Made by a program: the position numbers and the translations under genes. From positions 3,534,001 through 3,598,000 of the forward strand of contig NZ_PTRA01000001.1 in assembly GCF_002943425.1 (NCBI RefSeq): 64,000 nt of DNA. Direction: 5' to 3'. Under the pieces are notes generated by a model. That model was given only the letters and a program-made list of their open reading frames with translations. It made no database searches and was not told the origin of the DNA. Shown piece by piece: positions 18,976 through 63,886 of this stretch (position 1 is its first letter; each line of letters begins with the position of its first letter). Source of the stretch: Siphonobacter curvatus. GTDB lineage: Bacteria > Bacteroidota > Bacteroidia > Cytophagales > Spirosomataceae.

Positions 18976-18999
18976 CGGACTGACTTTTATCATTGAAAG

Positions 19000-60051: not shown

Positions 60052-60420
60052 TTATTCATAGCTCTTCTGTAGTAAATCCATCTGATCGCATAGCTTGATC
60101 ATGAAGTAGCGACGGGCCATCCGATGTTCCTCCATAAAGTGCTCGATTTCCTGTTTGTCAAACACCAGCAAAATGGATTCGTCATTCACCTTTACGGAAG
60201 CCTGATGCTCCACATTCAGCAAAGCTTCGTGTAATCCTAAAAAACAGCGGCTCTGGAGGCGATGGTTTTCTTTCCCATTTTCGGGTAAAATTTCGACCGA
60301 TCCGTCCTTGAGATAAAAAACAAACTCAGCAAGCTGTTCTTTCCGGTACAGATATTCGCCTTTGTGGGCGTACAACTCCGTACCCCGAGCCAGTAATAAT
60401 TTCTCCGTATCTAGTAGCAT
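60052..60420 (-). CDS. Cyclic-nucleotide-binding-domain protein lacking a DNA-binding domain
   Basis: A 122-residue protein consisting only of a Crp-like sensor fold: EYLYRKEQLAEFVFYLKDGSVEILPE at the front and a C-helix (EHFMEEHRMARRYFMIKLCDQMDLL) at the end, with no helix-turn-helix. The usual cNMP-contact segment (GE...RxA) is not obvious, so ligand binding is uncertain. ATG 60420 is preferred to a frame from 60462. An FNR-like box identical to the one in front of the FNR/ccoI genes lies 80 bases upstream. Could form a mixed dimer with, or sequester, a Crp/Fnr relative. Confidence 0.72.
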   Translation of the reverse strand: MLLDTEKLLLARGTELYAHKGEYLYRKEQLAEFVFYLKDGSVEILPENGKENHRLQSRCFLGLHEALLNVEHQASVKVNDESILLVFDKQEIEHFMEEHRMARRYFMIKLCDQMDLLQKSYE

Positions 60421-60498
60421 GGTTCTTCGTCTGGCTTTTCCCAACCGGGAAGTTAAGCTCAATGGTAAGGCGAAGTTGCTGGAAATCAGCCTCGTTTG

Positions 60499-60515
60499 AA
60501 ATGATAAAAATCAGT
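60499..60515 (-). promoter_or_regulatory. FNR-like operator, copy 1
   Basis: AAATGATAAAAATCAGT contains TGAT-N4-ATCA (60502-60513), the core of the FNR box TTGAT-N4-ATCAA. It is identical over 17 bases to 61341-61357. It lies upstream of the cNMP-domain gene and downstream of the FNR gene. Confidence 0.6.
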
Positions 60516-60550
60516 GGTTTCAGTGATGTGATTTAGTGGCTTTCGCACTC

Positions 60551-61258
60551 CTAATCGTACAACTGACTGATTTTCAACAGACGATCGGGCTTTAAAATCG
60601 TAATGGTACTACCGTGTGAACTTACGATTCCTTCCTCCTTGAATTCAGACAAAAAGCGGATCACCGTTTCCTTGGCCGTACCCACAATCGCCGCCAGATC
60701 CTCCCGGGAAATGGCAATACTGAATAGATCCGCTAGCTCGGTTTTATGATACGTCGCTTTGAGTAGTAAGAGTGCTTCGGCCAGACGTTCGCGTACGGGC
60801 TTCATCGCCATGTGAATCATCCGTTCCTGCGACTCCCCCAGGGCTTTCGCCAGCATTTTCATCAGATCATTGGCCACTTTCACATTCGAATCGATCAGAG
60901 AATTAAAGTCCGTAGCGGGCAAAAAACAGGCCTGCGTATCGTCCAGAGCTACCGCCGAGGCCGTGTACTTGGTGTTTTCGATCAATGAACGGTAGCCCAG
61001 TGTATCACCCGACTTGGCCAGGCGAATGATCTGCTCCTTACCCTCCGAATTCAGTCGGCTGATTTTTACTTTTCCGTCGAATACACAAAACAGACCGAAC
61101 GGGCGATTGCCTTCGTGAAAAATAACCTGCCCTTTCTTATAGGTGTGAAAGCACTTATTCTCATTCATCTCCAGCAATTCGTCATGCTGACAATTTTTGA
61201 ACAGCGAATGTTCACGAAAAGCACAACGTTGGCACTCAGGAGCAGCTTGCGATTTCAT
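60551..61258 (-). CDS. FNR-like transcriptional regulator (Crp/Fnr family)
   Basis: A 235-residue regulator. The N-terminus carries Cys9, Cys12, Cys23 and Cys36 (ECQRCAFREHSLFKNC..NKC), consistent with an oxygen-labile [4Fe-4S] cluster as in FNR. The cNMP-like sensor domain (about 30-150) is followed by a dimer helix and a DNA-binding HTH with recognition helix AKETVIRFLSEFKEEG: the Glu and Arg match those FNR uses to read TGAT, while FNR Ser is Ile here. ATG 61258 is preferred to frames further up. It diverges from the ccoI-type gene with a shared FNR-like box between them. Confidence 0.88.
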   Translation of the reverse strand: MKSQAAPECQRCAFREHSLFKNCQHDELLEMNENKCFHTYKKGQVIFHEGNRPFGLFCVFDGKVKISRLNSEGKEQIIRLAKSGDTLGYRSLIENTKYTASAVALDDTQACFLPATDFNSLIDSNVKVANDLMKMLAKALGESQERMIHMAMKPVRERLAEALLLLKATYHKTELADLFSIAISREDLAAIVGTAKETVIRFLSEFKEEGIVSSHGSTITILKPDRLLKISQLYD

Positions 61259-61340
61259 CAGGATCTTGTTTAAATGCCAAAACATATAGGGTATCACTAC
61301 CGGTTGGCTTGACAAAGTTGCAAGGTCACATCAGTTAGAA

Positions 61341-61357
61341 AAATGATAAAAATCAGT
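61341..61357. promoter_or_regulatory. FNR-like operator, copy 2
   Basis: AAATGATAAAAATCAGT with TGAT-N4-ATCA at 61344-61355, identical to 60499-60515. It lies 86 bases from the FNR-gene start and about 120 bases before the P-type ATPase start, so it could serve both. Confidence 0.65.
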
Positions 61358-61477
61358 TTCCGGACTTAATTCCAATCATGGAAAAAGGAAATGGAAAAGC
61401 GGACTTTTGGGGCTGCAACGAGCGTAACATCCGCCGTTGTCATCCGGCTTTCCCATGTCTTGCCTGATTTACTTGCC

Positions 61478-63886
61478 ATGAACAGCTCCACTGCTTCCCT
61501 ATCCATTGCGGCCCCTACGCATTGCTACCATTGTGGCAATGACTGTGCAGAAGACGCCCTCCACCTAGACGATAAAACGTTTTGCTGTGAAGGCTGCAAG
61601 ACCGTTTACGAACTACTAGCCGATCATGAATTATGCGGATACTATTCGCTGGGAAAAAGTGGGATCGGCACCTCGCCCAGCCTGGCTCGATTCGAATTTC
61701 TGGATCACGCCGAAATCAGTGATTCCTTACTTGATTTCCAGAATGATACGCAGGCAAAAGTAACGTTTTACCTACCGGCCATTCACTGTTCTTCCTGCCT
61801 GTATCTACTCGAACACCTGCCACGTCTGCATCCGGCGGTACTAACCAGCCGGGTCGATTTTATGAAAAAACAGGTTAGCATTCTGTACCGAAAAACGGGC
61901 GAAAGTCCGATTTCACTGCGGGAGCTAGCCGAACTGCTGGCCTCGGTAGGTTACGAACCACTGATTAGTTTACAGGATGTTGTCAAAGAGCAGCAGAATC
62001 CTACGTATCGTAATCTGCTCACGCGTATTGGTGTTGCAGGATTTTGTGCGGGGAACATTATGCTCTTTAGTTTTCCGGAGTACCTAGGGCTGGAAGATGA
62101 TTCATATAAAGTACTTTTTGGCTGGCTTAGCCTGATTCTGTCGTTACCAGTCGTCTTTTATTCCGGTGGTGGGTACTTTGAATCGGTCTACAAAAGTCTG
62201 CGGGCCGGGCGGCTCAACCTGGATTTCCCAATTCTGCTGGGTATTCTCGTCGCCTGGGGACGGAGTGTCTACGAAGTGCTTTTTCTGCAACAGAACGGCT
62301 ACTTCGATTCGCTAACGGGCCTGACGTTCTTTTTATTGGCCGGACAATGGTTCCAACAGAAAAGTTACGCCTTCCTTTCCTTCGAACGGGATTACAAATC
62401 GTACTTCCCGTTGGCCGTTACGCGGATTAAAAATTTTCTGACGGCTGAGACGGAAAGCATTCCCGTTCAGCAACTTCGTCGGGGCGATCGCATCCGGATT
62501 CGGCACGGCGAGCTTATTCCTGCCGATAGTTTGCTGTACCGGGGAACGGGCCTGATTGATTACAGTTTTGTGACGGGAGAAGCCGCTCCCGAATCCAGAA
62601 CGGTGGGGGAACTAATCTACGCGGGTGGACGACAACTGGGCGATTCCGTGGAGCTGGAAGTACTGAAAGACGTTTCCCAAAGTTATCTAACCCAGCTTTG
62701 GAATCACACGGCTTTTGCCAAAGGTCAGGAAAGTCGGCTGAAATCCTTTGCGGATCAGGTCGGTAAATACTTCACCATTAGCGTACTCACGCTGGCTACG
62801 CTGACGGCCCTGTACTGGTACGTGTACGATCCTTCCAAAATCCTCAACGCTTTTACGGCGGTACTCATCATTGCCTGTCCCTGTGCCCTGGCTCTTTCGT
62901 ACCCCTTTGCGCTGGGTCACGGTATGCGGATGCTCGGCCAGAAAAAGCTGTATCTGAAAAACGCCGAAGTCATTGAGCACATCGCTCAGTGCGATACGCT
63001 GGTTTTTGACAAAACGGGTACGCTGAGTACGACCGAAGTCAGTCCGATCCAGTATCAGGGCGAACCGCTCACAGCAGCAGAACGCGTGGCTCTGGCTTCG
63101 CTGGTTGAGCATTCCACGCACCCGATTAGTGTAAAACTGCTGGAATATCTCCAGCAATCAACACGAAAACCCGTTACAGGATTCGAAGCCGTAACCGGAA
63201 TGGGGCTTTCCGGCGTCGTCGATACGCACGTATTGAAATTTGGCTCCGCGGCCTGGGTAGGTGCTTTAGACCGGGAAGGTTCCGCTAGCTTTTTCAGTAT
63301 TGATGGGCAGATGAAAGGGGCTTTCCAACTCGTGCACCAGTACCGCGATGGTCTTGATGAAACGCTAACGCAGCTGGCTCATTCCTACGAACTGTACGTT
63401 CTTTCCGGCGATTCTGATACGGAGAAGCGTACGCTCAGTCGCTGGTTTCCCAGTGATCACATGGCCTTCCGGATGAAACCCGAAGACAAACTAGCGTTCA
63501 TCCAAACACTTCAGCAACAGGGTAAAAAGGTCATGATGTTGGGCGACGGGCTCAACGATGCCGGAGCTCTGAAACAGGCTGATGTGGGGATTGCCCTGAC
63601 GGATAATACGCTGCATTTCAGTCCGGCCAGCGATGCCATTTTGGAGGCGTCTCAATTGAAAAACGTAGGACACTTCCTCAAATTCAGTCGTACGGGCCTG
63701 AAAGTCATCCAGTTCAGCTTCCTGATTTCACTGGTCTATAATTTCATCGGCTTAAGCTACGGACTCACGGGTAATCTGGCTCCAATTGTAGCAGCCATTC
63801 TCATGCCCGTCAGCTCAGCCTCCATGCTTTTCATTGCCATTACGGGCATGCACTGGGCAAGGCGGCGGGAATTAGCGAGGGTTTGA
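61478..63886 (+). CDS. ccoI: Heavy-metal translocating P-type ATPase (CcoI/FixI-like copper exporter)
   Basis: An 802-residue P1B-type ATPase, the class that supplies copper for cbb3-type cytochrome oxidase. From ATG 61478 the order is an N-terminal Cys cluster (CYHCGNDC and CCEGC), an HMA domain with IHCSSCLYLLEHL, six to eight membrane helices with the metal path CPC in IIACPCALALSYP, the actuator VTGEAAPE (TGE), the phosphorylation motif DKTGTLS, and GDGLNDAGALKQADVG near the end. The Cys-rich extension is specific to the CcoI/FixI group. An ATG at 61391 is possible. The gene diverges from the FNR-like regulator; cbb3 genes may follow beyond the window. Confidence 0.9.
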   Translation: MNSSTASLSIAAPTHCYHCGNDCAEDALHLDDKTFCCEGCKTVYELLADHELCGYYSLGKSGIGTSPSLARFEFLDHAEISDSLLDFQNDTQAKVTFYLPAIHCSSCLYLLEHLPRLHPAVLTSRVDFMKKQVSILYRKTGESPISLRELAELLASVGYEPLISLQDVVKEQQNPTYRNLLTRIGVAGFCAGNIMLFSFPEYLGLEDDSYKVLFGWLSLILSLPVVFYSGGGYFESVYKSLRAGRLNLDFPILLGILVAWGRSVYEVLFLQQNGYFDSLTGLTFFLLAGQWFQQKSYAFLSFERDYKSYFPLAVTRIKNFLTAETESIPVQQLRRGDRIRIRHGELIPADSLLYRGTGLIDYSFVTGEAAPESRTVGELIYAGGRQLGDSVELEVLKDVSQSYLTQLWNHTAFAKGQESRLKSFADQVGKYFTISVLTLATLTALYWYVYDPSKILNAFTAVLIIACPCALALSYPFALGHGMRMLGQKKLYLKNAEVIEHIAQCDTLVFDKTGTLSTTEVSPIQYQGEPLTAAERVALASLVEHSTHPISVKLLEYLQQSTRKPVTGFEAVTGMGLSGVVDTHVLKFGSAAWVGALDREGSASFFSIDGQMKGAFQLVHQYRDGLDETLTQLAHSYELYVLSGDSDTEKRTLSRWFPSDHMAFRMKPEDKLAFIQTLQQQGKKVMMLGDGLNDAGALKQADVGIALTDNTLHFSPASDAILEASQLKNVGHFLKFSRTGLKVIQFSFLISLVYNFIGLSYGLTGNLAPIVAAILMPVSSASMLFIAITGMHWARRRELARV

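Follow-up and report, generated by a model that had tools for sequence, protein, structure and literature searches.

Two identical copies of a 17-mer, AAATGATAAAAATCAGT, lie at 60499-60515 and 61341-61357 of a 64,000-nucleotide stretch of DNA (the window; C1:3534001-3598000 of a 6.39-Mb Siphonobacter genome), one on each side of a gene for a regulator of the CRP/FNR type. They raise the question of whether they are operators and, if so, which protein binds them and in response to what signal. The reading preferred here, to which we give a probability of about 0.8, is that both are bound by the FNR-like regulator whose gene they flank and serve as its operators; this regulator would act at low oxygen as a class II activator of its own gene, a gene for a cNMP-binding-domain protein, ccoI, ccoS-ccoNO and a universal-stress (usp) gene.

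The repeated 17-mer, its neighbours and its conservation

The regulator, a protein of 235 aa encoded on the minus strand at 60551-61258, was defined by its matches to PF00027 and PF13545, by an orthologue alignment and by an alignment of 81 sequences. The gene at 60052-60420, also on the minus strand, had been described from the letters as a cNMP gene without an HTH, and PF00027 is indeed the sole domain found in it; its ORF is open from TTG 60462, with an ATG at 60420, and homologues are present in all 12 nearest loci. Divergent to the regulator gene (fnr) is ccoI (61478-63886, plus strand). Its proposed identity as a CcoI-type copper P-type ATPase is confirmed by the metal-binding domain PF12156, which scored 43.5 bits against a cut-off of 27, together with the P-type ATPase core (PF00122 and PF00702). 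ATG 61478 is the more likely start of ccoI and is favoured over 61391, because the putative -7 box lies downstream of 61391; most ccoI homologues align from approximately residue 33-45 of the longer ORF. Past the end of the window there is a ccoS-like ORF at C1:3602134, followed by a fused ccoNO at C1:3602303.

The 17-mer is identical at both places, as claimed in the sequence-only reading. Allowing up to three mismatches, four matches are found in the window against 0.23 expected, and none of the shuffles reached four. The exact 17-mer occurs three times in the 6.39 Mb of the genome; the remaining copy, at C1:3012144, falls within the ORF of a Na+/H+ exchanger, where promoter geometry was looked for and none was seen. 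The core conforms to the family consensus TGAY-N4-RTCA and, as was also proposed, differs in its outermost base from the E. coli FNR box, TTGAT-N4-ATCAA. The bare core TGAT-N4-ATCA occurs 182 times genome-wide compared to 54 for the reversed pattern, and the version with an all-A/T spacer occurs 26 times compared to 6, so many of the bare-core matches are background. The possibility that every TGATN4ATCA is a site was therefore rejected, given the 182 in the genome and the lack of promoter geometry at most of the A/T-spacer subset; the bare core alone is insufficient to define sites. The asymmetric variant TGACW4ATCA, to which the ccoS-ccoNO site belongs, is not enriched as a class in this genome (12 versus 14).

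A palindrome lies on either side of the regulator gene in each of the six genomes of the genus, and its spacer varies (TGATAAAAATCA, TGATATAAATCA, TGATTTTTATCA and TGACATATATCA). TGAY-N4-RTCA was then sought within 350 bp upstream of genes in 12 related loci from Siphonobacter, Pseudarcicella, Arcicella, Flectobacillus and neighbours. It was found upstream of fnr and of ccoI in 12/12 each, of the cNMP gene in 11/12, of uspA in 6/6 and of ccoNO in 6/8 loci, whereas permuted control palindromes gave means of 0.17-0.5 loci. The highest control palindrome, YGAT, was found in up to 11 loci and is probably not independent, since YGAT can also be satisfied by true sites whose flanking bases happen to match. 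Neither of the two outcomes named in the sequence-only reading as counting against it was thus obtained: the 17-mer is not common genome-wide, and the sites are conserved upstream of the orthologues of fnr, ccoI and the cNMP gene.

Sites extend to Pontibacter, at ccoI in 4/4 and at ccoNO in 4/4, and to more distant Bacteroidota, at ccoNO in 13/28. None was found in the upstream regions of group-III globins (0/10), nor was an autoregulatory site found upstream of the Chitinophaga regulators. A site at pdxH/DUF349 (C1:2223035) was considered as a conserved regulon member and rejected, being absent from relatives beyond the nearest strain. At the Flectobacillus, Arcicella and Pseudarcicella loci (L138-L142) a usp gene adjoins the cNMP gene and has its own operator; in Siphonobacter curvatus uspA is located elsewhere.

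Promoter geometry and target genes

The Bacteroidota sigma-A -7 box, TAnnTTTG, spans -12 to -5 (PMC9723704). The distance from the operator start to this box (the offset) was profiled for 566 site orientations at 80 loci, using a box match of at least 5/6. There were 85 such boxes at offset 35 and 80 at offset 57, against a mean of 4.8 (s.d. 3.0, maximum 18) at other offsets; the 80 loci include related species, so these counts are not independent. Perfect boxes numbered 39 and 41 at the two offsets, against 0.2 elsewhere, and no comparable peak was seen with two control palindromes. Given this span of the box, an operator at offset 35 is centred at -41.5, which is the canonical position for a class II activator, and one at offset 57 is centred at -63.5. 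In homologous loci 34 of the 37 operator pairs lying 12-60 bp apart were spaced by exactly 22 bp, these tandem pairs being found in Pontibacter, many Chitinophaga and several other lineages (L145-L148, many Chitinophaga of L157-L190, L191, L195, L198, L210, L211 and L213). In Spirosomaceae, weak partner sites at +/-22 gave the top mean score, and among the 75 pairs listed from a phylum scan of 118 genomes 22 bp was the commonest spacing (27 pairs), with 23 bp next (10 pairs). Two dimers probably bind cooperatively on one face of the DNA.

Within the window, the divergent fnr/ccoI region holds a putative strong operator at 61341-61357 (the exact 17-mer, conserved in 12/12; core TGATAAAAATCA at 61344-61355), with -7 boxes at offsets 35 and 58. 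A putative second operator, TAATTCCAATCA at 61367-61378, is found 23 bp away from the strong one at 61344 and is weaker, agreeing with 7/8 of TGAYN4RTCA. The putative fnr -7 box, CAACTTTG (61313-61320, minus strand), has a predicted +1 at 61308 when the box is placed at -12 to -5 (PMC9723704), and is 35 bp from the strong operator. The putative ccoI box, GACTTTTG (61402-61409, plus strand, predicted +1 at 61414), is at offset 35 from the weak operator and 58 from the strong one. Each promoter is therefore predicted to have operators centred at both -41.5 and -64.5, with the strong site taking the nearer position for fnr and the weak site for ccoI. The Siphonobacter loci examined all retain an offset of 58 for ccoI as well as RTCAT, the right half-site of the weak operator. 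The start of the regulator was set at ATG 61258 and not TTG 61315, because in three congeners the upstream extension is interrupted by an in-frame TAG and because the predicted transcription start at 61308 lies downstream of TTG 61315 on the minus strand.

Upstream of the cNMP gene, the other exact 17-mer (60499-60515, core 60502-60513) is a putative operator centred at -41.5, and a site is present here in 11/12 loci. The putative -7 box, CAACTTCG (60471-60478, minus strand, predicted +1 at 60466), has only a 4/6 match and is conserved in all five Siphonobacter loci. A possible weak distal partner, TGATGTGATTTA at 60524-60535, with a 6/8 match, lies exactly 22 bp from the operator core and is retained in the nearest strain only. 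Elsewhere in this genome, -7 boxes at offset 35 accompany the sites of ccoS-ccoNO (GACCTTTG) and of an EboA-family gene (TATTTTTG), and uspA has its box at offset 57. The Siphonobacter -7 boxes are non-consensus, with CA or GA where TA is expected. At the EboA-family gene (C1:2832849) a perfect operator is combined with a perfect -7 box at offset 35.

A pattern containing no target-gene information, TGAYN4RTCA-N23-TANNTTTG, gave 557 matches in 106 genomes, from the present one to class level, against 19 for the reversed pattern, a control which cannot separate joint placement from single-motif abundance, as the offset profile can. Scanned loci were returned from 30 genomes. The genes downstream included ccoNO (2), ccoI (1), hemN (1), usp (3) and a di-haem cytochrome c peroxidase (1). 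Such a set of ccoNO, ccoI, hemN, usp and peroxidase-type targets is the classic one of FNR, ANR and FixK. The small regulon envisaged in the sequence-only reading was an understatement, the same promoter design being found phylum-wide in the scan. Its suggestion of autoregulation and control of cbb3 assembly agrees with the operators upstream of fnr (12/12) and ccoI (12/12), and cbb3 control holds because an operator also precedes ccoS-ccoNO. The conservation of the sites, their promoter geometry, their tandem spacing and the identity of the target genes are all directly observed.

The regulator protein

The regulator has a cNMP-type beta-roll (PF00027, 80.4 bits) and a Crp HTH (PF13545, 61.7 bits). 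It scored 86.7 bits with the NCBIfam Fnr model and 89.2 bits with FnrL, below the respective cut-offs of 228 and 300, and is therefore filed under neither. The predicted structure (pLDDT 90.5) has a TM score of approximately 0.85 to A. fischeri FNR, similar to that for CRP-type structures, and for this protein neither the overall fold nor the HMM scores separate FNR from CRP.

The main contacts with the FNR box are made by Glu209, Ser212 and Arg213 (PMC4505428). The recognition helix of the Siphonobacter regulator reads E197-T-V-I200-R201, which bears out the Glu, Ile and Arg previously noted in it. E197 and R201 are invariant in the 81-sequence alignment, and I200, at the position of FNR Ser212, is Ile in 80/81 sequences. 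The altered outer base, which was suggested to result from Ile in place of Ser, is A in 30-78% and T in 8-17% of half-sites, depending on the group. This fits the suggestion throughout the family but amounts to a correlation. The sole homologue of the 81 with Ser at that position is from Hymenobacter pini (L168), and no operator-like site was seen in its 16.7-kb locus.

The cysteines of the regulator include C9, C12, C23, C36, C58 and C111. The four N-terminal Cys reported from the letters are present (C9, C12, C23 and C36), but the four best conserved across the 81 sequences are C9, C12, C58 and C111, each found in 80/81. The third N-terminal Cys follows as CX10 in the Siphonobacter regulator, lies mostly 8-10 residues past the CX2C elsewhere and is absent in some homologues. 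C9, C12 and C111 align with C20, C23 and C122 of FNR. A Chitinophaga costaii paralogue (L206:8001-8663) lacks C9, C12, C58 and C111 all together, while an intact copy (L190) is present in the same strain, which makes it a natural test of how the Cys group with one another.

Other relatives of the regulator occur within the genus. Two Siphonobacter genomes have a second Cys-bearing FNR-like paralogue (L092 and L093; C8, C13, C16 and C107), and palindromes, for instance GTATGATATAAATCATAT, occur no further than about 1.5 kb from it. In two Siphonobacter genomes a receiver domain of the response-regulator type is fused to a CRP-type regulator, giving proteins of 348-354 aa (L090 and L091), and one of these loci (L091) has an operator-like site nearby.

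Proposed mechanism and comparison with known systems

In the mechanism proposed, a dimer of the regulator would bind TGAY-N4-RTCA and, from an operator centred at -41.5 ahead of the Bacteroidota sigma-A -7 box, would activate transcription as a class II activator. At low oxygen it would drive its own gene, the cNMP-domain gene, ccoI, ccoS-ccoNO and the universal-stress gene, with ccoI serving in copper delivery to the oxidase and ccoS-ccoNO in providing the cbb3 oxidase itself. In the divergent fnr/ccoI region each promoter would be served by an operator at -41.5, assisted by a helper at about -64.

It is hardly credible that the repeats are chance A/T-rich palindromes. Bare cores are frequent, as the 182 TGATN4ATCA in the genome demonstrate, but both positions are kept across genera while the flanks and spacers change, and the promoter geometry is fixed. 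The neighbouring regulator is the probable binding protein. Sites flank it in every orthologous locus examined, and one of the 30 loci returned by the blind phylum scan (L297) is a promoter of the same Cys-bearing family, which makes it quite improbable that a different CRP/FNR paralogue of this genome, such as the receiver-domain/CRP fusion at C6, is the binding protein, even though paralogues L090, L092 and L093 have an E-x-x-x-R-type recognition helix and in L091 a site lies close to the fusion gene. FNR-type proteins can repress some promoters, and the regulator might do so from these sites. We consider this very improbable, and activation the probable outcome, since operators at -41.5/-63.5 with non-consensus -7 boxes (CA or GA for TA in Siphonobacter) are the layout expected for activation and oxygen limitation induces cbb3 in a flavobacterium (PMC9723704).

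The nature of the signal is a separate matter. The regulator probably carries a 4Fe-4S cluster, and oxygen is the probable controlling signal. Alternatively, the operators and activation could be real and the signal something other than an oxygen-labile Fe-S cluster, such as another metal, NO sensing or a thiol redox switch via the conserved Cys. The Cys spacing, usually CX2CX8-10C compared to CX2CX5C in FNR, and the extra invariant C58 could be taken in that sense; however, the targets are the classic low-oxygen set, C9, C12 and C111 align with FNR ligands, and the four Cys are missing together in the C. costaii paralogue (L206), so a signal of that kind seems unlikely. A further and tentative proposal is that the regulator represents a distinct FNR-like oxygen regulator of aerobic Bacteroidota. 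Its cluster might be held by the N-terminal CX2C together with C58 and C111 of the beta-roll, and not by three N-terminal Cys and one other, and it might control cbb3, heme and stress genes, at their sigma-A -7 promoters, from tandem -63.5/-41.5 operators with a rigid spacing of exactly 22 bp.

Compared to FNR of E. coli and A. fischeri, the system has in common the CRP/FNR fold, the TGAT-N4-ATCA core, the recognition Glu and Arg, the CX2C and beta-roll Cys aligned with C20, C23 and C122, the operator at -41.5, and targets of the cbb3, hemN and usp type. It differs in having Ile for Ser212, with Glu and Arg kept; in the absence of CX2CX5C, the third N-terminal Cys being displaced or absent and C58 being extra; and in the absence of TTGAT-N4-ATCAA, the outer base being mostly A and rarely T. 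The Bacteroidota -7 promoter, the 22-bp tandem operators and the failure to reach the NCBIfam Fnr cut-off are further differences. Judged by its sequence, the Siphonobacter regulator system would work like FNR, and fails several of the defining sequence tests of E. coli FNR. Proteobacterial regulators of the FnrL, ANR and FixK type use FNR-type boxes to control their own genes as well as cbb3 oxidase and heme synthesis. The present system is in a different phylum, has a different promoter type and Cys spacing, and matches the FnrL and FixK models weakly, below their cut-offs. With CRP it shares the fold and the TGA-N6-TCA core; unlike in CRP, the half-site TGTGA is not found, the sites reading AAATGAT, GACTGAT, AAGTGAT and similar, and the regulator has conserved Cys and respiratory targets. 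Bacteroidota CRP/FNR proteins have been assigned to MalR and to carbon sensing (PMC8510549). These belong to the same superfamily and phylum, whereas conserved respiratory targets and conserved Cys are found here.

In Flavobacterium psychrophilum, strong induction of the cbb3 oxidase and of heme genes at low oxygen has been described (PMC9723704), in a study which names no regulator and whose main text contains neither "Fnr" nor "Crp". For FNR boxes or an FNR regulon of Bacteroidetes, the open-licence literature gave nothing on point; earlier reports may exist. The present analysis offers a candidate regulator, operator, promoter geometry and target list for the low-oxygen response in Bacteroidota, which makes oxygen control in a major environmental phylum directly testable. 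TGAY-N4-RTCA followed by 23 bp and TAnnTTTG also provides an easy way to predict the regulon from sequence.

Two other sites of this design were observed in the genome. At C1:139318 a perfect operator and a perfect -7 box precede a 124-aa ORF of unknown function. At 18979-18995 of the window, CAATGATAAAAGTCAGT is accompanied on the minus strand by GACTTTTG at offset 57; it is directed into a short gap adjoining the 3' end of a 232-aa gene, and is possibly the promoter of a small RNA or a chance match.
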